Source of the DNA: a virus
IMG/VR virus record: IMGVR_UViG_3300030110_001412
Coordinates: 1-37,586 of that record
Length of the DNA stretch: 37,586 nucleotides
Strand: one strand, 5' to 3'
Shown here: positions 2,005 to 30,529 of the stretch, piece after piece
Layout: each line of letters opens with the position of its first letter
Position numbering within the stretch: the stretch's first letter is position 1
The notes under the pieces: model-generated
The model's database searches: none
Seen by the model: only the letters and a program-made list of their open reading frames with translations
Told to the model about the DNA's origin: nothing
Program-made: the position numbers and the translations under genes

Positions 2005-2110
2005 AATCTCTCCTTATGTCTAATACCACTATTCTACCACAAGTAAAACAGTGTAAATCTTTATCTTCATTTAGTCGCATCATTCCACGACATTTGTCAC
2101 ATGTAATCAA
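1832..2110 (-). CDS. Small zinc-ribbon protein, TTG start
   Basis: The 92-residue frame opens with a clear zinc ribbon: Cys at 4 and 7 (CDKC) and 21 and 24 (CFTC). The rest is arginine-rich and charged. The start is TTG and overlaps the stop of the PAP2 gene as TTGA; no good Shine-Dalgarno is seen, so translation would depend on coupling. The last 173 nt overlap the metallophosphoesterase gene in another frame, so residues beyond about 35 may be unconstrained. The cysteine spacing is unlikely to be chance. Family unknown; a nucleic-acid or protein-binding role is inferred. Confidence 0.55.
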   Translation of the reverse strand: MITCDKCRGMMRLNEDKDLHCFTCGRIVVLDIRRDYDSYPRKGKKRNNQEEASRVELDRHRNLDERKVRLRGTSDNLSKMVRQRGLAKRRTL

Positions 2111-3717
2111 AATTCTAGTTTATCTAAGTCTAGTTTATCATACACTTTTTCTGCTAATAGAATGCCTGCCTTAGAATCACTAGGGAAATGCACCCCTGCG
2201 ATTACTCTATTCTCAGTTATTTCTTCGGCTAGTTTTAGTAGTCTATCTTTATATTCAGGGTATTTTTCACTTAACGCTTTAGCAATTATGTGTGATTGAA
2301 ACGCATGCCCTGATGGATATGAAGGCGTTTTAGAAGTCTTTAACTCTTCAGGTACCATATCCACGTTATGATGGTCAGTTAAATCTTTAGGTCTAGGTCT
2401 ATCAAACTTCATTTTTTGTCGCATAACAATTATTCTTGTATCACGAATTAAATCTTGAAGTTTTTCTTTAGTTAAATTAATTTTATTTTTTTGAGCTATG
2501 TCTAATACATCTGTAAAGTTAACAAAGGTTTCATCTAAATCATCATCTTGTTCATCAATTGCTCTTTGCTTTCGTCCCTCATCCTCAAGTTTTTGAAAGT
2601 TTCTATGTTTGGTTAATATTTTTCCTAACTCTGCTTTCACTTCTTTACTTCCGTTTGGAAAAGGGTCAGGTAATTCAATCGCATCAATTTCATTAGTTGT
2701 AAGATTAAATAATTTTAAAGGTTTATTTATTTTTTCAATTACTTCTTTTGGTAACTTATCTGTATCTGTCCATTTTAAATCGTCAATGTCCTCAGCTTTT
2801 GCAAGTTTTTGTGTGTAGTTATAAGCTGCATTGTTACCTGTATAAGTTCCACGATGTTCATCAGCATCTCTAGTTAAAATTTTTATATCTTCTTCATCTT
2901 GAATCTCATCTACATAATCTTCATCTGCTTTTTGGATTTCATATTTTCCTGTTTTAATTTTATTTTTAATTTGCTTTATTTGATTAGCTATGGATTCTTT
3001 CGCATCGTCCATACTAAATGGTGTATCTTCTTTATCATGTTCTGTGTCATGGGCTTCGTCAGAATGTTTTTCTATATACGCACCATCATCTGATTTCAAA
3101 ATGTCTGATATAAAACTATCTATATCTTTTGGTTCTGTGTCTTTTTCTATTTCAGGATTGTCATCAATCTCATCTTTTTCAGCACCTCGTTTATATTCAC
3201 CTTGTTGCCCCTTCCAATCCCAACCACTATACTGTTTAGCTACATCGACTGTACCTGAACCAACAGCTGCTGAATCTAGATTGTTTTCAGGACCTTGTTT
3301 CTTAGCATCTTCTTTATATCCACGCACTCTTCTTTCAAAATCTCCCTGCTCCATTAATACATACTCATCAGGGTCTCCATCTGTTTCCACATATTTTTCT
3401 TTTTCTTTCATGTGGTCAACTACTTTTGGACCCAAATTACCTCTTACAGTTTTATTACCATACGCACTAGCATCTTCATTTACAGTTGAAGTCATAAGTT
3501 GACCTGCGTTTTTAGAAAGACTGTTTATAAGTGCGACTAAAGATTTGGTCATGTCTTTAGGTTCTGCCATTTGTGGGCTATATTCATCTAGAAAAGCTTC
3601 TAGTTTATCTATGCCATCTCTCTTCCTTCGTTTTCGTTTAGGTTTTTGAGTGCTTCGATAAGTACTAGAAGTAAAAGCTGTATCTGGTTTTCTTAATGGT
3701 CTGTCATTTACAGGCAT
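2107..3717 (-). CDS. Large acidic protein with C-terminal PAP2-superfamily phosphatase domain
   Basis: The last 110 residues of this 536-aa protein carry all three PAP2/haloperoxidase motifs: K435-x6-R442P443, PSGH at 468-471, and R504-x5-H510-x3-D514. H510 would be the nucleophile or vanadate-binding His and H471 the acid. The family removes phosphate from lipids, nucleotides or small molecules, or oxidises halide when vanadate is bound. Residues 1-430 are very hydrophilic: a basic start (about 21-34) followed by long Asp/Glu/Lys stretches. There is no signal peptide or membrane span, unlike most PAP2 lipid phosphatases. AGGAAACTA precedes the ATG. It lies in the portal region, which suggests a virion or assembly role, though a nucleotide phosphatase role is equally possible. 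Confidence 0.8.
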   Translation of the reverse strand: MPVNDRPLRKPDTAFTSSTYRSTQKPKRKRRKRDGIDKLEAFLDEYSPQMAEPKDMTKSLVALINSLSKNAGQLMTSTVNEDASAYGNKTVRGNLGPKVVDHMKEKEKYVETDGDPDEYVLMEQGDFERRVRGYKEDAKKQGPENNLDSAAVGSGTVDVAKQYSGWDWKGQQGEYKRGAEKDEIDDNPEIEKDTEPKDIDSFISDILKSDDGAYIEKHSDEAHDTEHDKEDTPFSMDDAKESIANQIKQIKNKIKTGKYEIQKADEDYVDEIQDEEDIKILTRDADEHRGTYTGNNAAYNYTQKLAKAEDIDDLKWTDTDKLPKEVIEKINKPLKLFNLTTNEIDAIELPDPFPNGSKEVKAELGKILTKHRNFQKLEDEGRKQRAIDEQDDDLDETFVNFTDVLDIAQKNKINLTKEKLQDLIRDTRIIVMRQKMKFDRPRPKDLTDHHNVDMVPEELKTSKTPSYPSGHAFQSHIIAKALSEKYPEYKDRLLKLAEEITENRVIAGVHFPSDSKAGILLAEKVYDKLDLDKLEF

Positions 3718-12560: not shown

Positions 12561-13036
12561 TATTTCGTAATCCTTAAAGATATAATTCTGCTAATCGTAT
12601 TAAATGCTGTTGTATAAGAAGCCAATAAACCTTCTAGTCTTAAAACTTCTGCTTGAGCTTCCCTTAGTTGATGTGCGTGGTCTTTAAGATTAGGGTTTGC
12701 AGATAAAACTGCACCTTTAACTTGTTCTTTCACCATACGTTTTGCATCAGTATTTTGTTTTACAAATTTATACATAGTTACTGACATGGCTTCATCAAAT
12801 TGGTCTGATAACAATTTTGCTTGAGCTTGTACATCTGATAACGCATATTCTAAATATGACTTATAGTTACCATACATAGTTAAATATTCTTGTAATCCTT
12901 CATTAGTTTGTCGCCATGCTTCAGCAAATTCTAAATGTGGTTTTTCTTCTAAATCCCATTTTAATGAGGGGACATTCATTTTCCTTTCTATTTTTGGATT
13001 TTTAGGTTCTTCATCTAACCAACTCTGTTGTGTCAT
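12560..13036 (-). CDS. Helical protein, possible UvsY-like recombination mediator
   Basis: A 158-residue, mostly helical protein. After a short Lys/Pro-rich N-terminus, about residues 35-158 form amphipathic helices. The middle and end, AVLSANPNLKDHAHQLREAQ and then a helix ending in ISRIISLR, recall the LSAD...AIKSR ending of T4 UvsY, which loads the UvsX recombinase onto SSB-coated DNA. The genome also encodes a RecA/UvsX homologue and an SSB-like protein, so a mediator is expected. The similarity is by eye and weak. The start is coupled to the previous stop as ATGA. Confidence 0.45.
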   Translation of the reverse strand: MTQQSWLDEEPKNPKIERKMNVPSLKWDLEEKPHLEFAEAWRQTNEGLQEYLTMYGNYKSYLEYALSDVQAQAKLLSDQFDEAMSVTMYKFVKQNTDAKRMVKEQVKGAVLSANPNLKDHAHQLREAQAEVLRLEGLLASYTTAFNTISRIISLRITK

Positions 13037-13767
13037 ATTGAATGTCTCCCAAATACTTCACGTGCAACTACATCAGCACATTTGGCTACTTTATTTAAAT
13101 CTAAATCACCATCTGTTCTAACCTTTGTTTCCATATCTATCCAAAAAGCTTTTTTAGGAGATAGGTTTTCTGTAAGAGTTTCTATAACAGATTCTATATT
13201 ATCAGGACCTATACCACCTGCGAAACCACACGTGACTCCTTTATAGGGCATAGGGAATGTGCCTGGTAAAATACCTGCACCTGATGAGGTGTCAAACAGA
13301 TATTGGATGTTTGGAAAATCACCATTGTCTAAGTAATTGTAAATCCATCCGTCATTCACCCCATCAAATTGAAATATAACTTTTTTATTTGATACAGCTT
13401 TTAAAAATTGTTCTAATGTAAATAAAGTCATTTCTGTGTCAGTTACACTTTTCATAACTAATTGAAAATAATTTAATCCGTGAAAATTTAATTGTATTCT
13501 TTGAAACGCATCTAAATTTACTTTACATTTATTTTCTAATGCAACATCTAAATCACTACCACATAGATGTGCAGATAAATTCATTGGGGTTTTTTTTGCT
13601 TCTTCTAATAAATTTCTTACCCAATCTGATGTTGGAAATCTTGACCCACCTGATGATGGAAATAATATACCCCATTCTAAAAATGGATATTCTTCTGATA
13701 ACTGAGACATACCTCTAATGTTTGTTTCATTATCAGCTCCTGTTACTGTCATACGTTCTAATTTCAT
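13033..13767 (-). CDS. TrpF-like TIM-barrel protein lacking the catalytic Cys
   Basis: The second half of this 244-residue protein follows phosphoribosylanthranilate isomerase (TrpF) closely: LFDTSSGAG at 157-165, GFAGGIGPDNI at 181-191, and IDMETKVRTDGDLDL at 210-224, in the order and spacing of the TrpF strands beta 6 to 8. The N-terminus MTVTGADN would align with KICGLT of TrpF, but the catalytic Cys is replaced by Thr, whereas the Asp of LFDT is kept. It is therefore probably not a tryptophan enzyme. The gene sits between two recombination genes, coupled by ATGA at both ends, with AAGGTGAAATT as ribosome site. The true substrate is unknown. Confidence 0.65.
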   Translation of the reverse strand: MKLERMTVTGADNETNIRGMSQLSEEYPFLEWGILFPSSGGSRFPTSDWVRNLLEEAKKTPMNLSAHLCGSDLDVALENKCKVNLDAFQRIQLNFHGLNYFQLVMKSVTDTEMTLFTLEQFLKAVSNKKVIFQFDGVNDGWIYNYLDNGDFPNIQYLFDTSSGAGILPGTFPMPYKGVTCGFAGGIGPDNIESVIETLTENLSPKKAFWIDMETKVRTDGDLDLNKVAKCADVVAREVFGRHSI

Positions 13768-22283: not shown

Positions 22284-22711
22284 TTTTCAAATCTTTTTTC
22301 TAGTGTTTTTAATTCTTGTGTTTGTCGTGCATTTGGAAACCACGTAGCCTTTAATATATTATATCGCATCCAAGCTTGTTTCACTTTTGATGTACCCTTA
22401 CTAATTACGTACCAATATAATTTTGGGTCATGTTGAGTTTGATATCTTTCAAATGAATTAATAAAATTTAAAACTGAGAAATATGTAGTGTTCTGACCAA
22501 TGGCGTTGTACATACCACAAAGAAGTGAATATATATCTTTGGATTCTAATAATTTTTTTAAACCTTTAACTTCATCCCCAACAAATGGAAAGGGACTTTT
22601 ATTTTTACCTGTGTTTACATTGTACGGTTCAGAATTTAATTGTTCATATAACTCCATGAATTTAATATGTAAATCCCTGGCATTATATTCTTCAAACTTT
22701 TTGCTTTCCAT
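22235..22711 (-). CDS. Helical protein upstream of the helicase, function unknown
   Basis: A protein of about 158 residues from the ATG at 22711; a TTG one codon earlier is also possible. It is mostly helical and has an aromatic stretch with FINSFERYQ and YWYVISKG, then a long charged helix ending in EKWLEGQEE. Its place before the DnaB-like helicase would suit a helicase loader, but I see no motif of DnaC or T4 gp59. The start overlaps the end of the sigma-like gene. Confidence 0.6.
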   Translation of the reverse strand: MESKKFEEYNARDLHIKFMELYEQLNSEPYNVNTGKNKSPFPFVGDEVKGLKKLLESKDIYSLLCGMYNAIGQNTTYFSVLNFINSFERYQTQHDPKLYWYVISKGTSKVKQAWMRYNILKATWFPNARQTQELKTLEKRFEKWLEGQEEVDSSEILN

Positions 22712-23237
22712 CAATGTACGCTTTCAATTTTTCTTTTAAATTCTGTCTAACTCTATATGATGACTCACCTAAATCATTTGTTATTTCTTCCATGGTAAGT
22801 CCATCTACACGACTAGAAATAAATACTTTTTCTTTTTCCGTGAATGTATCATTATTATCAGATAATATGTCATCTAGCAAGAGTAAATTAGAAAAATCTT
22901 CAGCATTAGGGTCTTCTAAAGCTTTTTGTAGCTCGTTTGGATTCTGTTCATCATCAGTTGCAGAAATAAAAGTTTTATCAAAACTAACAACTTCAGGAAG
23001 TTTAGTGGCTTTATTTATTAAGGTAATAAGTGTATTTATCATACCTCTATGAACATATGTATGGAAACTTGCTGTGCTTTTACCACTATCGTATTTTTCA
23101 GCACACCTCATTAACACCATTCTAAGTTCTTGTATTAGGTCGTCTTTGTCCATACCATTAACATAGTATTTATTAACTAAACCTTGTATTTTAGGTTCCC
23201 ATTGTGTAATTAATGTATTGTCTATAGGTATTGTCAT
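22692..23237 (-). CDS. Phage RNA polymerase sigma-like factor
   Basis: About 181 residues from the ATG at 23237, which overlaps the previous stop as ATGA; a TTG three codons earlier is also open. Counted from that TTG, residues 17-83 resemble sigma region 2, with DKDDLIQELRMVLMRCAEKY and then FHTYVHRGMINTLITLI, the helices that bind core polymerase and melt the -10 region. Residues 134-177 resemble region 4, with TEKEKVFISSRVDGLTMEEI and an HTH ending in YRVRQNLKEKL. An acidic linker of about 45 residues replaces region 3. Size and layout recall T4 gp55, the late sigma factor, and ECF sigmas. It follows an HTH/zinc regulator. Confidence 0.8.
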   Translation of the reverse strand: MTIPIDNTLITQWEPKIQGLVNKYYVNGMDKDDLIQELRMVLMRCAEKYDSGKSTASFHTYVHRGMINTLITLINKATKLPEVVSFDKTFISATDDEQNPNELQKALEDPNAEDFSNLLLLDDILSDNNDTFTEKEKVFISSRVDGLTMEEITNDLGESSYRVRQNLKEKLKAYIDGKQKV

Positions 23238-23614
23238 TTCGCCCAACTAAGTGTTTTATCAACCCTTCCTTTATTGTAACAACTGCGAGTACAGTAAATT
23301 TCGTCAAATCCTCTACGATAACCCTGCATGATAGCCGCCCTATCTCTTCTAAATTTTACCTTACAAAAAGCACATGTAAGCTCTACTTTGTAATACTCAT
23401 AACTACATCTTCCTTTATGCACCTTAGCTGTAGATTCTTTTTTACATATTTCACAAAGTCTTACTTTTCTTTTTCTAGGTGGATTAGGTAAATTTTCTTG
23501 TTTTAATAATCTGTGTACATATTGTCTACTACATCCCACTTTTTTTGCTATTTTTGTATTAGACCATAGTGGATTATCTTTTCTAAGTTTTATTATTTTT
23601 TTAGTTGCGTTCAC
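23234..23614 (-). CDS. HTH and double zinc-knuckle DNA-binding protein
   Basis: The 126-residue protein has an N-terminal HTH at about 19-38 (NTKIAKKVGCSRQYVHRLLK). Two cysteine clusters follow: C54, C57 and C70 (CEIC), then C81, C84, C108 and C112 (CAFC, CTRSC), probably zinc-bound. Overall charge is strongly basic. It starts at GTG overlapping the previous stop (TAGTG), with no ribosome site, so coupling is needed. It is translated just before the sigma-like factor, which suggests a regulatory pair. An HNH-like nuclease remnant is an alternative, but no His-Asn-His set is visible. Confidence 0.75.
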   Translation of the reverse strand: MNATKKIIKLRKDNPLWSNTKIAKKVGCSRQYVHRLLKQENLPNPPRKRKVRLCEICKKESTAKVHKGRCSYEYYKVELTCAFCKVKFRRDRAAIMQGYRRGFDEIYCTRSCYNKGRVDKTLSWAK

Positions 23615-23808
23615 TAAAATGAATCAACGGATGCACTCGCTTTTTCAAAAGATTCAACCTTCTTTTTTATTATACGATTTAAATTTGCCGTTAATAAACT
23701 TTCAAAAGTATTGTCTTCGGTTACAGTTCCTATACCTGTTAAGTTTATCCCTGCAGCTTCCATTCGTGCCCATTGTGCATCTGTAAATGATAGTGTAATA
23801 TCAGGCAT
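23614..23808 (-). CDS. Small acidic protein after the tail fibre gene
   Basis: A 64-residue protein beginning MPDITLSFTDAQWARMEAAG, a short strand followed by an amphipathic helix, then a Lys-rich helix. AAGGAGAATTTAG precedes the ATG. Small proteins of this type often follow tail fibre genes in marine phages, but no function is known to me. It overlaps the fibre gene by 8 nt and the next gene by 1 nt. Confidence 0.7.
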   Translation of the reverse strand: MPDITLSFTDAQWARMEAAGINLTGIGTVTEDNTFESLLTANLNRIIKKKVESFEKASASVDSF

Positions 23809-26800
23809 CTAAATTCTCCTTTAGTTCAGTTATTTCGTTTTTTAATTTTTTAAGTTCAGCAATTAGTGCTACAGAAAGTAAATCATATCGTACTGATTCA
23901 ACCTCTCCATCAGGATTAGATATTGTAAATTCAGGTAAAATTTCGGCTACTTCTTCTGCAATTAATCCTACGTCTGACTTATCATTTGATTTCCATACAA
24001 AATCTTTTGGTTGCAAATCATATATTTTTTCTGTAGGAACTAATGTATCTTTTATATCTTTTTTATGTTTTTTAGATGATGTTTTACTTTTAATTAAATT
24101 ATATCCTGGACCAGTATCAACAATTAAATCTGTCCCAGTACCTGAACTTAGCGTATTTATAATCATACCTGCATTAAAAAGTTGCATTCTAGTAGCAGAA
24201 CCACTACTACCATCATCTGTGTTAAATGAAGTTGTTCTACTAGCACCTGACCCAGAAACAGCTATGTAATTATTAAGACTTGTTAATCCAGCACCTCCCA
24301 TTACAATACCATTAGTAATGTAAAAATAACCATTGTCATCAATAGATGCTTCAAGAGTTCCGTCTGATGCAAAACCAATACTGCCATCACTATGGTGGAA
24401 TATACCTGTATTACTATCTCCATCAAAAGCAAGCACTGGTGCTGTTACTAGTCCTGAACCAAAACCCTGTCCTACATAATTTGACTCTCTTACTTGTTCG
24501 GCACCTCTACCAACGTGTTTAATTTTATATTTAACATGTGCTTTTCCTCCTGCCGCTTGTCCTTTAATATCTGCATGTCCTTCTGCAATAATTAATTTAG
24601 TCGCTCTGTCTTTAACATTTGTTTCAAAGGTTTGCACATCCACCCAGTTTAATCTGACTGTACCCCCTTGCTGACCTAAATCTACGAAACAAATGTGGTA
24701 TGAATCAGGATATCCATCTGCACCCCCACCATTGCTAGAGGTTCTACCCTCAGAATCAACTATGTCAGTGGTAGTAAATAATTGTGCCCCTGTTATACCT
24801 GGTGCTGATGTGCTCGCATTATCAATATTCCATCCATCAGTACTATTTCCTGGGGCTATTTTATATTCTTCACCCTTATATCTTAATATACCTGCACCCC
24901 AATGCACTGCAGCATGTTGCTGTGTAACAATATGACTTGTATCATTTTGACCTGATGTACTAGAAAATAAAGTGCCTGGTTTAAATGTAATGTCTATGGA
25001 TGGAGGTTCGGTTTCAGATGTTGTGCTATCTTCAGTCGCAGAAAAAGCTTGGCTTTCTGTATTTCCAGCTATTTTTGTAAATGCTGATTCTACTGCTGTA
25101 TTACCTTCATCTGCTTTAACTAGGGTAATCGTGCTATTTTGTTGTCCTTGCCCTTCAGTATAGTCAATACTTGTTACCATAAAAGATGTTTGATTATCAC
25201 TAAATGTATTACTGCTAGTCGTATCTAATCCAACCAATTTATTTTTAATTTGTACTAAATGCCCTGTCCTTAATGGGACAAATATCCTAAATTTATCATC
25301 GGCTGAAAATGTGCCACTATTCAAAGTTACTGTAAATGTAGTTGAACTAGTTGCTGAAACATATCCATAAGCCGCCATACTACTACCTGAAAGTTTCCAT
25401 GCCACCATACCTACACGTAATCCATATGCTTCAGGGTCTATAGCTGCGTTGTTTGCTGTATTATAAGTGGTCACTACTGTTCCACTACTAGCAACTGCGT
25501 TTGCCGTACCATCTATATATTGATAAGCATAATTATTTATTCGCACCGTGCCTGAACGGGTTTCTGATTCATGAGATAAAGCTTCAGCTACAGCTACTCT
25601 TATTGCATCAGCATTTTTATCCATAGGTGATACAACCATATTCTTAGGTTTATTAAATCCTATTACGTCAGCTCTATTTATAGTTTGAGATGAAGAGTCA
25701 AATGTAGCATGTGTTCCATAATCATCATCACTATAATTTATTTCTGTTAATCTAAATTTTCCAGTGCTTGGGAAATTAGAATTTAAGTCAGATACTAACA
25801 TGTAATCTGTTCCTGCTGACCAACTGTTTAATTTAGTTTGATATTGTGCCCTACCAACTATTGGTATTACGTGAGATAACATGCTAATTACTTCAGCATT
25901 ATCACTATGAGATGCTCTTGTTGTGCCGTTATAACCACGCTCAACAACTAAATCAGCATCTTGACTATCATAAGTAGCCGTTTTTACAAGCATTTCCTCA
26001 CTACCTATTTTAATAATCATACCTGCTTGTATATGAACTGCTCTAATATCTGTAGATACTTCTAAAGTAACATCTGTCGTGCTTGCTGAGTCATTTATTG
26101 CTCCATCTAGTTGTCCACATTTTAAAGTTCCTGATGTCCAAGATACAGCCCCTAATTCAGATTTAACTATGAATTGTGTATTAGAAATTACTCTCTCAAC
26201 TCTAAATATATTGTGGTCAAATATAGCTCCTGCTGCACCTTCTTGTTCTTTTTGTCCTTGAACGTGTTGAGACATAATAATATTTTTTGAAAAGACTTCT
26301 GATGTCATATCAGATGCAACACCACTTGTGCCTAATTCAGCTCTATCAATTGTAATTTTGTCAAAGTCTTCACCAATTTTTCGTTCATGTACTTCATCGC
26401 TTTCATTTTTTGAAATTGCTGAAACTGTAAATATTTCTGCATTACCTGCAATTCTTACATCTTTACCAGGCTCTACAAATTCATCAGCGTCAGAAGTATT
26501 TCCTATTTGTGGGTCTGCTACTGTAGTGCTTGTAGCTAATTTTTGGTCTTTATACACAAATAAATCAGTACCACTACTACTAATAGAGCCTCCTTGTGTT
26601 GCCACGGTTATCTCTCTACCAAAAGCTCTACCGTTTGCATTTCTACCTTTAAATCGTTGAGCAGCTTCAGTTACTTCACCCGTTGCACCTAAACTAATAT
26701 TAGTGAGTAAGAATCTATCACCTGCTTCTAGAAAATGACTTGTAGCAGTATTTATAATAACTTCGTTTTTACTAGCCAAATTAGTTGTTGCAATACTACT

Positions 26801-28132
26801 AAGTCTTACTTTTCCACAAGGTGTAGAATTATTATCATCATTTTCAGGAACCCCAATATATTTCATCCAGCTATTTTCAAAACCCCATTTAGAATTAGTT
26901 GTTTTAGCTATATCATCACCAACGTTATGTCGATAGGCTCCGTTAGCCCCTGAGCCAATAGTATCAGCCCACATTCTAATCAACCAACCACCACCTAATT
27001 CATCTTGTGAACTATTAATACCGTGTACAAATCCTTCTTTACCATCTGTATAAACATAGTTTCCATTAACAGTATAGTCACCAGCTATTGGTCTGTCTGT
27101 CCAAGTAAATGTTCCTGCACCATCACCACTTGCTCCACCTATTTGAGTAGGATTTAATCTAGCAATTCTAAGTGGTGCAAACTTTTTATCTTGTCCCTGA
27201 TTTGTACCATCTCCTCCACCTTTGTCTACAAATTTAATTTCAGCTTCTGAAAAGACATCTGTTCTTACTCTATCAAAGTCAAAGTCAGATAACATTCTTC
27301 TAGTCTGCCCACCCTCAACATCACTTGAACTTAATGGGAATACTATTTTCATACCATAAGTATCCATGTTAGCTTCTGTATTTGGTCGAGTTGCTCTCTT
27401 AAAATAATTTAACATCGGGGTCTGTGTAGCACTTGTAGCCGTTGATGTAAATTGTGGTGCTAAATAATAATCATGTCCGAAAGCTGTTTGAGATACCGAA
27501 GCAGTTGGTAAACCTGTATGAGGTTCTGTTCCAGAAACTTGTTTTATTGCCGCAAGAACACTTTTCCCTGCATCTTTTGGCATAAAATCACCTGTTCCGT
27601 TAGGAAATTCTATTGTTGATGTTTCAAATTGGTCTGTATCACTTGTTGCAATGTTTCCTGTTTTACTTGAATAATCAATCATTTTAGAAATTAGCTTACT
27701 ACGTCTATTATAGACACTATCTGTCGTGTCCATTTTAGTCATTGCATCCGTTCTAAACTCTCTTAATTCATATAGATTGTCATAGCATTTAACAATTAAA
27801 ATGTTACCCATACCCATAACATATTTTTCTGCCACATCTTCTGCAAAACCTGAAAATATTACTTGTTTAGAGTAAGAATCAATAATTCTAACTTTCATAA
27901 ATTCTGTAATAATACCTGTCAGATTACCTTTAGTAGATGACGCAGTACCTGAACGAGGATTAGTTGCTTTATTAATTAAAGTCGCACTAACTTTCATTGG
28001 ATTATAAATAATATCTTGAACGCTCAACTCCATTAATGCATTGTTACCAGCAGGAGTTTGTGCTTCTACATAATTAGAACCATTAAAATATTGAAAAGAT
28101 GCTCTACCTGCACTACTGCCTACTATAGACAT
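23801..28132 (-). CDS. Very large tail hub/fibre protein with C-terminal S74-type intramolecular chaperone
   Basis: A 1443-residue protein. The first 150 residues (VKVRIIDSYSKQVIFSGFAE and following) resemble tail hub or baseplate proteins that close the tail tube. The long middle part is Ser/Thr/Gly/Asp-rich and beta-like, as in fibres. Residues 1350-1443 form an endosialidase-type chaperone: S1352...K1357-x-D-I, then FVWK, GLIAEEV and ILPEF, ending in a coiled coil. Such domains drive fibre trimerisation and are then released by self-cleavage just before the Ser. It probably covers both tail tip and host contact. GGAGG precedes the ATG at a good distance, supporting the full length. Confidence 0.85.
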   Translation of the reverse strand: MSIVGSSAGRASFQYFNGSNYVEAQTPAGNNALMELSVQDIIYNPMKVSATLINKATNPRSGTASSTKGNLTGIITEFMKVRIIDSYSKQVIFSGFAEDVAEKYVMGMGNILIVKCYDNLYELREFRTDAMTKMDTTDSVYNRRSKLISKMIDYSSKTGNIATSDTDQFETSTIEFPNGTGDFMPKDAGKSVLAAIKQVSGTEPHTGLPTASVSQTAFGHDYYLAPQFTSTATSATQTPMLNYFKRATRPNTEANMDTYGMKIVFPLSSSDVEGGQTRRMLSDFDFDRVRTDVFSEAEIKFVDKGGGDGTNQGQDKKFAPLRIARLNPTQIGGASGDGAGTFTWTDRPIAGDYTVNGNYVYTDGKEGFVHGINSSQDELGGGWLIRMWADTIGSGANGAYRHNVGDDIAKTTNSKWGFENSWMKYIGVPENDDNNSTPCGKVRLSSIATTNLASKNEVIINTATSHFLEAGDRFLLTNISLGATGEVTEAAQRFKGRNANGRAFGREITVATQGGSISSSGTDLFVYKDQKLATSTTVADPQIGNTSDADEFVEPGKDVRIAGNAEIFTVSAISKNESDEVHERKIGEDFDKITIDRAELGTSGVASDMTSEVFSKNIIMSQHVQGQKEQEGAAGAIFDHNIFRVERVISNTQFIVKSELGAVSWTSGTLKCGQLDGAINDSASTTDVTLEVSTDIRAVHIQAGMIIKIGSEEMLVKTATYDSQDADLVVERGYNGTTRASHSDNAEVISMLSHVIPIVGRAQYQTKLNSWSAGTDYMLVSDLNSNFPSTGKFRLTEINYSDDDYGTHATFDSSSQTINRADVIGFNKPKNMVVSPMDKNADAIRVAVAEALSHESETRSGTVRINNYAYQYIDGTANAVASSGTVVTTYNTANNAAIDPEAYGLRVGMVAWKLSGSSMAAYGYVSATSSTTFTVTLNSGTFSADDKFRIFVPLRTGHLVQIKNKLVGLDTTSSNTFSDNQTSFMVTSIDYTEGQGQQNSTITLVKADEGNTAVESAFTKIAGNTESQAFSATEDSTTSETEPPSIDITFKPGTLFSSTSGQNDTSHIVTQQHAAVHWGAGILRYKGEEYKIAPGNSTDGWNIDNASTSAPGITGAQLFTTTDIVDSEGRTSSNGGGADGYPDSYHICFVDLGQQGGTVRLNWVDVQTFETNVKDRATKLIIAEGHADIKGQAAGGKAHVKYKIKHVGRGAEQVRESNYVGQGFGSGLVTAPVLAFDGDSNTGIFHHSDGSIGFASDGTLEASIDDNGYFYITNGIVMGGAGLTSLNNYIAVSGSGASRTTSFNTDDGSSGSATRMQLFNAGMIINTLSSGTGTDLIVDTGPGYNLIKSKTSSKKHKKDIKDTLVPTEKIYDLQPKDFVWKSNDKSDVGLIAEEVAEILPEFTISNPDGEVESVRYDLLSVALIAELKKLKNEITELKENLDA

Positions 28133-28713: not shown

Positions 28714-29936
28714 TAGAGAGTCTCCTGTTGTCCATACATAGATAAAGTTTGTTCCATACCATTTCGTTCATTAATTACTTTAGCTTGAGCATCTATCCCT
28801 GGTTCTAATACAATTTTAGTTTGAAGATTGTCCACAATTGCATCTGTTACTATACTAGTTATTAACGCTGTTGGTAGTCCACCTAATGCTCCTGCTGTTT
28901 TAACTGCAGCTCCAGCACCTTCTAATAAACCTGATTTAAGACCACCTTCTTGAAAAGCCTGTATAGTATCTCTAACTCCAAATCCTGCTGTAACTATTGC
29001 TCCAAGACCTGGTATAAATTTAGCTCCTGTGGCTGCTTTACCAAGTAATCCTTTTCCTAATCCACCAAGACCAGGAATTTTAGATAAACCTGTTGCAATT
29101 TTAGTTATAAGTCCTTGAAAAGGTTTTATTATAAATTGAATAACTTTTCCTAAAGTGCTAGTAATTTTTGCACCAAAGTTTTTAAGTGCATTAGGAATTA
29201 ATTTACTAATCATCCCTGATAAACTTTTTATAATTTCTACAACAGTCTGCCCAGCACCTTTAATTAAAGTTGATGTACCTTTTATAATCATGGCAGGTAT
29301 ACCTTTTATAAAATTAGGGAATCCTTTAGTAACATAAGACATTATATTTTTTCTAATCGGCTCAACAAATTTAGCAAATAGATTTTTACCAAATTTAGTT
29401 CCAAAGAAAACTTTTACTAAACTCCACAGACCTGTAACTTTAGCAAGGGCTGCAACAGTAAATAATGCAACAATAGCTCTTCCAAAACCATCTAGATAAC
29501 TTTTAAATGTATCACCACCACCAATACCAAGAAAACTAAAAAGACCCTTAAGTCTATCTCCTATAAAAGTAAAAATACCCACTACACCATCTACGATGTT
29601 TGCTGAATATCTTTGAACAAGAGGAATAGCTTTAGCTAATAATTTTATTAGTGGTAAAAAGAATGGCACCAGAGGCATTAATAATACGTCTGCTAATGCA
29701 CCTAAAATTTGAAATAATGTACCAAAAAGACCTGTAAATATCTGTGACTGTTTAAGAATTGCGGCGATACCTAGATTAATACCTAAACTGGTTCTTAACC
29801 TTTTATTGCCCTGTTTCGCCATCTCCTTACCCTGTGCAAGTAGTTTTTGGAAGAAACCTCCTTCTTCTTCACCACCTCCACCACCATTACCACCAGTGGA
29901 ATCAATCATTAATTTTGCAATTAAATTATCTGCCAT
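28713..29936 (-). CDS. Tail tape measure protein (short)
   Basis: The 407-residue protein follows the tail chaperone pair, the normal place for the tape measure. After a Gly-rich acidic segment (14-28) it consists of repeated hydrophobic helices, including a strong membrane-like stretch at about 68-105 (LFGTLFQILGALADVLLMPL), and many small Gly/Ala helices, typical of tape measures that occupy the tube and aid DNA entry. No lysozyme or peptidase motif is seen. At about 0.15 nm per residue a tail near 60 nm would be predicted. There is no Shine-Dalgarno before the ATG. Confidence 0.8.
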   Translation of the reverse strand: MADNLIAKLMIDSTGGNGGGGGEEEGGFFQKLLAQGKEMAKQGNKRLRTSLGINLGIAAILKQSQIFTGLFGTLFQILGALADVLLMPLVPFFLPLIKLLAKAIPLVQRYSANIVDGVVGIFTFIGDRLKGLFSFLGIGGGDTFKSYLDGFGRAIVALFTVAALAKVTGLWSLVKVFFGTKFGKNLFAKFVEPIRKNIMSYVTKGFPNFIKGIPAMIIKGTSTLIKGAGQTVVEIIKSLSGMISKLIPNALKNFGAKITSTLGKVIQFIIKPFQGLITKIATGLSKIPGLGGLGKGLLGKAATGAKFIPGLGAIVTAGFGVRDTIQAFQEGGLKSGLLEGAGAAVKTAGALGGLPTALITSIVTDAIVDNLQTKIVLEPGIDAQAKVINERNGMEQTLSMYGQQETL

Positions 29937-29942
29937 ATTTAT

Positions 29943-30161
29943 TTAGTAAGCTTTTGCAGCTTGTCTCTCCATATCTTCATTTTCTTTTTGTTTAAGTGCT
30001 GCATTTATACCTACTAAGATAGATATCTCATCATCGGTAGCCTCTTGTATGACTCCGTAAGGTATACCATCTTTCAGCAATGACAGCACCACCATCCAAT
30101 ATCTATAAGTTACCATTTCATGAGGATTCAGGTCGGATGACCCCCTCAGAACCCTCATCAC
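29943..30161 (-). CDS. Second tail assembly chaperone (T part), made by -1 frameshift
   Basis: The 72-codon frame has a GTG-ATG at its start but no ribosome site. It is open in the -1 frame relative to the chaperone gene at 30158-30529 and overlaps its end by 4 nt. With the slippery A AAAAAA run and stem-loop at 30122-30170, it is expected to be translated mainly as a fusion with that protein, like lambda G-GT. The sequence is helical: MVTYRYWMVVLSLLKDGIPYG and then a Lys/Glu-rich end. The tape measure gene follows. Confidence 0.72.
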   Translation of the reverse strand: MMRVLRGSSDLNPHEMVTYRYWMVVLSLLKDGIPYGVIQEATDDEISILVGINAALKQKENEDMERQAAKAY

Positions 30162-30170
30162 TCTTTTTTT
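30122..30170 (-). other. Programmed -1 ribosomal frameshift signal
   Basis: On the minus strand a slippery A AAA AAA (30170-30164, in-frame codons AAA AAA) is followed by a 7-nt spacer containing part of the stop codon. An 8-bp stem follows, with GAGGGTTC (30156-30149) pairing with GAATCCTC (30129-30122), one G-U pair. Its loop contains a second 4-bp hairpin, GGTC-ATCC-GACC. After slipping, the ribosome continues in the downstream 72-codon frame without a stop. Layout and position match the conserved tail chaperone frameshift. Confidence 0.85.
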
Positions 30171-30529
30171 ACTTGGTCAACCTTATCGTCTTCACCAAAT
30201 GCTGATGGAACTAATCTTTCTAATGCTCCACCTAATCTAGTGTCTATACCTAGTAAAAATGATTCTGTGGTCGCTCCCCAAGGTGCTTGCACTATCATAT
30301 CTTTTAAACAATTTCTAACATATTCATCTGCTTGGAAACTTGTATTACCTTTAGAATCAAATTTCATACATTTTGAAATTAATTGATTTCTTTTGCTCCA
30401 AGACATTTCTTTAACAGTAAGTTCAAAAGAAGCTCCTGTTTCTTCAATAGTTATAGTTTTCTTTTCTGGACCTCTTTTAATCTGATAATCTTCAAGATTA
30501 AAGCCATCCGTCTTCAGCTCATCTGACAT
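30158..30529 (-). CDS. Tail assembly chaperone (G part)
   Basis: A 123-residue protein directly after the tail tube gene. It has ITIEETGASFELTVKEMSW at about 25-43, a helix NQLISKCMK, and an acidic/Lys-rich end (FGEDDKVDQVKKE) that forms the frameshift site. Genes at this place in long-tailed phages encode the chaperone that keeps the tape measure soluble while the tail forms. AGGAGG lies 7 nt before the ATG. It ends in TGA, with the -1 product continuing into the next frame. Confidence 0.8.
   Translation of the reverse strand: MSDELKTDGFNLEDYQIKRGPEKKTITIEETGASFELTVKEMSWSKRNQLISKCMKFDSKGNTSFQADEYVRNCLKDMIVQAPWGATTESFLLGIDTRLGGALERLVPSAFGEDDKVDQVKKE

Follow-up and report, generated by a model that had tools for sequence, protein, structure and literature searches.

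A probable programmed -1 ribosomal frameshift of the lambda G/GT kind in the tail genes of uncultured viruses

Between the genes for the tail tube and the tape measure protein of an uncultured virus lie two small overlapping frames, and the question they raise is whether the second one is translated as a protein of its own or is reached, through a programmed slip of the ribosome, as an extension of the first. The window considered here, i.e., the whole stretch of 37,586 nucleotides analysed from the IMG/VR record IMGVR_UViG_3300030110_001412, has a GC content of 35% and carries this tail chaperone cassette on its minus strand; folding of the plus strand at these coordinates was dropped, since the genes run on the minus strand. 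A first-pass annotation, made from the letters, had proposed a complete -1 frameshift cassette at this place. In the light of the homologues described below, we consider with high confidence that ribosomes at this locus would be programmed to slip into the -1 frame as they do at lambda G/GT.

The cassette and its neighbourhood in the window

All the elements of such a cassette are present, namely an in-register heptamer, a near stop, a stem and a -1 frame (Table 1). The 3′ end of the G open reading frame reads GTA AAA AAA GAG TGA, which sets the seven A in the register A AAA AAA, as the first-pass annotation had claimed (30170-30164, minus strand, in the G reading frame). Its description of a downstream frame of 72 codons, exactly -1 and free of stops ahead of the junction, is likewise borne out by the map of open reading frames: from five codons 5′ of the zero-frame TGA through to 29943, the -1 frame contains no stop. 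The predicted GT fusion is 195 aa long, with the junction ..QVKK-RVMRVL...

Table 1. Coordinates of the putative frameshift cassette and of the flanking tail genes in the window.
Feature	Position	Strand	Basis and remarks
Tail tube protein, 582 aa	30548..32296	-	Pfam Phage_tube_2, E 1.8e-7
G-like tail assembly chaperone, zero frame	30158..30529	-	Open reading frame of 123 aa, C-terminus ..QVKKE*
Slippery heptamer A AAA AAA, zero-frame register	30164..30170	-	Sequence; in-register X XXY YYZ in 83/83 loci
Zero-frame stop TGA	30158..30160	-	One codon past the heptamer; overlaps the GTG/ATG of the -1 frame
Outer stem, 5′ arm ATGAGGGTTC	30149..30158	-	Folding and helix search; starts after a 5-nt spacer
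Inner hairpin GGGTC atcc GACCT	30130..30143	-	Folding; not conserved
Outer stem, 3′ arm GAATCCTCAT	30120..30129	-	Folding and helix search; 10 bp, one G-U
T-like -1 frame	29943..30164	-	73 codons and a stop, counted from the shift point; conserved in 53 lineages
Tape measure protein, 407 aa	28713..29936	-	PHROG tape measure, E 1e-6

Taken from the window only, an A7 run or a stem could be due to chance, because 29 A7 runs occur on its minus strand and because, in a sequence of 35% GC, the stem is only modestly better than its shuffled counterparts (z of -1.6, -1.85 and -2.4). In-register shifty heptamers are in fact frequent in the AT-rich genes of the window. The signal becomes compelling only through its conservation in homologues.

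Regarding the identity of the genes, the G product matches a PHROG tail assembly chaperone with an E value of 8e-4 in the window, and 11 of 16 G homologues match phrog_25860 (best E 5e-6). Its AlphaFold model (mean pLDDT 82) resembles the BFVD models of tail assembly chaperones from HHTV-2 and Bacillus phage and, weakly, that of the Mu chaperone. In Pfam, TAC_5 was hit only below the cut-off; in the PDB, 3klu (YqbN) reached an E value of only 0.2, and the profile search of the same database returned only spurious metallo-beta-lactamase scores with E above 0.2. As for the -1 domain, a confident, helical model was obtained (mean pLDDT 92), neither PHROGs nor BFVD offered a convincing relative, and its T-like role is suggested by its position. 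A tail-tube homologue lies 5′ in 52/52 other lineages and a tape-measure homologue lies 3′ in 51, the order tail tube, G, T, tape measure being held in 51/52 lineages besides that of the window. This synteny, together with the chaperone matches of G, agrees with the proposal of the first-pass annotation that the locus occupies the site where long-tailed phages make their G-GT fusion.

A particular arrangement is found in the clade of the window (L001-L005), where the tape measure gene starts 3-6 nt past the T stop (29936-29946, minus strand, in the window) and is preceded by no Shine-Dalgarno (SD) sequence (-0.1 kcal/mol, the family median being about -6 to -7), hinting at a coupling of tape measure translation to that of T. 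Such coupling was rejected as a rule of the family, a good SD being found before the tape measure gene in most lineages.

Several other genes of the minus strand deserve mention. Near the portal gene, an open reading frame of 536 aa (2107-3717) has a phosphatidic acid phosphatase (PAP2) domain at its C-terminus (Pfam E 2.6e-9) and looks unusual for a phage structural region. In the product of 22692-23246, Pfam detects region 2 of sigma-70 (E 1.4e-9), which suggests a bacterial host. Lying 3′ of the tape measure gene, 23801-28132 encodes a protein of 1443 aa with a C-terminal S74 endosialidase-chaperone domain, probably a tail fibre or tip protein, while the 244-aa product of 13033-13767 has a weak phosphoribosylanthranilate isomerase match, below the cut-off (Pfam E 2.8e-4).

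Conservation of the junction and the competing explanations

Profile scans of IMG/VR and GTDB contigs provided 82 loci with a readable junction, one of them on a GTDB MAG contig; L033 was excluded, its match being partial and its junction not identified. Together with the window they make 83 loci, corresponding to 53 lineages at a cut-off of <80% DNA identity over 220 nt. Among 50,697 phage records, the sole match for G was the haloarchaeal virus HHTV-2 (28-32% identity), and tblastn detected, as named relatives, none other than HHTV-2 for G and, for the terminase, a Sinorhizobium phage with a weak match. About 50 lineages of uncultured viruses, devoid of a close cultured relative, are those in which, to judge from their sequences, the G/GT frameshift is kept.

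The comparison with relatives, suggested by the first-pass annotation as a check on the A run, has a clear outcome: an in-register X XXY YYZ is present at 83/83 junctions, as A AAA AAA in 81 loci, A AAA AAC in one (L059) and T TTA AAA in another (L081). The preceding codon is ATA, GTA, TTA, CTA, GCA, ACA or AAA, which stand for Ile, Val, Leu, Ala, Thr or Lys with a constant final A; the exception is one lineage where the codon AAT gives the T of T TTA AAA. The A run is exactly seven nucleotides long in 49/53 lineages, longer ones being those of L095 (nine) and L056 (eight). A zero-frame stop is found one or two codons 3′ of the heptamer in 50/53 lineages, at a distance of 3 nt in 38 of them and of 6 nt in 12, and a -1 frame stop lies at most two codons 5′ of it in about half of the lineages; the shift point is thus pinned to the heptamer from both sides. 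SD-like elements 5′ of the heptamer are not enriched (a 4-nt match in 12/53 lineages, compared with 0-26 at four control positions).

Past the heptamer, the -1 frame runs on for 65-90 codons with no stop in 53/53 lineages, the median for the +1 frame being 12. The alignment of the 53 lineages reveals a domain conserved from the shift point onward, with the motif R[VI]xxFLRG..YW..LLK.GIPW. In 21/53 lineages no ATG, GTG or TTG occurs in the first 15 codons of this frame, and in two of them (L039 and L088) there is no start codon for more than 70 codons, with the motif still conserved from the shift point. Separate initiation therefore cannot explain T in general. The first-pass annotation had named the kind of homologue that would speak against it, i.e., one lacking both run and stem or having two separate genes with their own ribosome sites, and no such case occurs among the 83 loci: in all of them the heptamer is kept and the -1 frame is without a ribosome site of its own.

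These data have to be confronted with other explanations, one of which is translational coupling. Ribosomes ending G at the TGA would restart at an overlapping start codon and yield a separate T, and the window itself has what this requires, since the GTG (30161) and ATG (30158) of its -1 frame overlap the G stop as GTGATG, an arrangement that, from the window alone, leaves room for reinitiation. A start codon at most two codons from the junction is in fact present in 20/53 lineages, the window among them, often as TAATG. Coupling leaves unexplained, however, the 21 lineages with no early start and a domain that is nonetheless conserved, as well as the retention of the heptamer in all loci. 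Moreover, the T starts are without SD pairing: in the window they score -0.9 and -2.4 kcal/mol versus -10.2 for G, and in the family the best-SD start of G has a median of -9.7 kcal/mol versus -2.4 for the first possible start of T. The statement of the first-pass annotation that the second frame has no ribosome site of its own holds as regards SD pairing, but it overlooked the GTG/ATG overlapping the stop. Overall, coupling as the explanation of T is very unlikely, and reinitiation at GTGATG as a general mechanism was rejected because many lineages have no start at all, although some free T could be added in this way in the lineage of the window. In 18/53 lineages the third residue past the shift is Met, usually through a TAATG over the G stop (e.g., L054, L055, L061 and L080), and a minor reinitiation product beside the fusion is possible there.

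Transcriptional slippage, in which RNA polymerase would add an A at the run and the altered mRNA would encode the fusion, predicts the same protein; A runs do slip, and those of L095 and L056 are longer than seven. Nevertheless, polymerase slippage has been cited for A runs of n>7 (PMC3711429), and the run length found in most lineages is under that figure; rather than runs above seven A, of variable length and in free register, the family displays a fixed register and downstream RNA pairing, which suit ribosomal slippage. In turn, L059 (A6 and then C) and L081 (TTTAAAA) have no long A run and keep a ribosomal heptamer in register, as would be expected of tandem slippage on the ribosome and not of a polymerase on an A run. 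This alternative is thus extremely unlikely. Finally, the locus might consist of two normal neighbouring genes, or reflect a pseudogene or an error of assembly, with run and stem arising by chance in AT-rich DNA. The commonness of A7 and the modest stability of the single-sequence fold would be compatible with this view; the recurrence of the arrangement in 53 lineages, which come from many different assemblies, the MAG contig included, makes its probability practically negligible. The programmed ribosomal frameshift is the reading retained in what follows.

A downstream stem under partial selection

With regard to the stem of the window, folding corrects several details of the first-pass annotation: the spacer is of 5 nt, not 7, and the outer stem, announced as 8 bp with one G-U, does contain the G-U but extends to 10 bp and ends 2 nt past the reported end. 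Nested in it, an inner stem of 4-5 bp pairs 30143-30139 with 30134-30130.

At the family level, the 50 nt that begin 5 nt past the heptamer fold more stably than their shuffled versions, with a mean z of -1.37, the values at other positions ranging from -0.73 to +0.11. When the 3′ arms were swapped between lineages, own arms gave -9.60 kcal/mol versus -7.05 for swapped ones (z -6.8, 0/10000 permutations), while nine control positions stayed at |z| <= 2.2; the test only partly removes kinship among the lineages, an effect which the controls suggest to be small. A perfect helix of at least 8 bp is found in 57% of the lineages versus 22% of the chimeras. Since about 40% of the lineages have no such helix, the stem is not universal, and where present it varies in sequence and in the register of the 3′ arm. 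From these comparisons, it is the pairing potential, and not one fixed sequence, that is conserved in part of the family. Spacing of 5-9 nt and covariation, as expected of a 3′ stimulator, are accordingly seen for part of the family only.

Closer to the window, the outer stem is kept in the sister L005, where a U-A takes the place of the G-U. The inner stem, for its part, is disrupted in the sisters L001 and L003 (GGTC to GAAC). Because of this disruption two tiers are unnecessary, and the inner 4-bp stem was rejected as an essential element; the idea of a two-tier stem well suited to hold a ribosome survives only for its outer part, on which selection acts in some members of the family. On these grounds, the outer stem is probably a real stimulator in the clade of the window.

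Proposed mechanism and comparison with known systems

Most ribosomes would read ..GTA AAA AAA GAG TGA and terminate there, yielding the 123-aa chaperone G. A minority, with A AAA AAA occupied by tRNA-Lys in both the P and the A site, would move back one base and read AAA AAA AGA GTG ATG AGG.., thus adding a helical domain of 73 aa and producing a GT protein of 195 aa. In analogy to lambda, G would coat the tape measure protein and tail-tube subunits would be recruited by the T portion of GT, the ratio of G to GT being set by the efficiency of the slip, which the stem a few nucleotides 3′ probably boosts in the lineage of the window. That slippage occurs, how the tRNAs move and that the products act as chaperones is what we infer. 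A frameshifting of 10% has been reported for A_AAA_AAA in a tested cassette and of 6-7% for HK97-like tail chaperone genes (PMC3711429), and from these figures the efficiency in the window would probably lie between a few percent and about 10%.

The closeness of the G stop could mean either that the stop takes part in the process or that the overlap is simply minimal. It could be imagined that the G stop is itself part of the stimulator, with terminating ribosomes, release factor level or queueing altering slippage, and that in the clade of the window the amount of tape measure protein may depend on the frameshift as well, by coupling to T. The latter idea comes from the tape measure gene having no SD and starting 3-6 nt past the T stop; as a whole, the proposal is speculative and seems to us unlikely.

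A G/GT frameshift would be maintained across a wide range of uncultured viruses, to which hardly any cultured phage is related. The 53 lineages constitute a clean comparative set, with a heptamer near-fixed, a stop adjoining it and a variable stem, which allows one to ask how slippage is tuned by the distance of the stop and the strength of the stem. There is also a consequence for annotation, as in many genomes T is reachable only via G and can easily be overlooked or taken for a gene of its own.

Among known systems, the reference is the -1 frameshift of lambda G/GT and its counterparts in long-tailed dsDNA phages, as presented in the account of Xu, Hendrix and Duda (2004) relayed by PMC5009743. 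The likeness comprises the position between tail tube and tape measure, the overlapping frames with T in -1 and the in-register heptamer, as well as the many lineages with no independent T start; no sequence relation of T to these proteins was found. The slippery sequence of lambda is GGGAAAG, unlike the A AAA AAA of the window family. It has been described that some tailed phages apparently use no frameshift stimulator (PMC5009743), in contrast to the downstream stem selected in part of the present family. Two phage sets have mean heptamer-to-stop distances of 26 and 36 nt, respectively (PMC10885494), unlike the 3-6 nt by which the G stop follows the heptamer here in 50/53 lineages.

Haloarchaeal viruses offer two different comparisons. 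In HCTV-1, -2 and -5, tail chaperone -1 frameshifts have been reported on X XXY YYZ, A_AAA_AAC included (PMC5009743); they are like the window family in heptamer type, a likeness by description between different viruses and hosts. HHTV-2 genes 47/48, for their part, share the gene order, the G fold (Foldseek E 8e-7) and a short tape measure gene (419 codons). Their junction (L034, 3290-3320) has the -1 relation but reads GAG GAA AAC TGA, in which a canonical X XXY YYZ is missing, and the annotation treats gene 48 as separate, starting from its own GTG 8 nt past the stop; such a junction without heptamer is a point against the frameshift reading, coming from a distant relative.

In the dnaX gene of E. 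coli there is equally a tandem lysine slippage on an A run followed by a 3′ stem. The stimulators of dnaX are this 3′ stem and an upstream SD-like element. The differences are that its heptamer is A AAA AAG, that no upstream SD-like element is enriched in the window family and that the -1 shift in dnaX yields the shorter of its two products.

Altogether, the features of the G/GT class are found in the window family: two small genes between tube and tape measure, a conserved -1 overlap, a heptamer and a chaperone upstream, with a T lacking its own initiation in 21/53 lineages and, in the window, a start codon without SD. The locus would be ordinary in kind, a member of a well-known frameshift class encountered in a family of uncultured viruses, for which the comparative evidence is strong.
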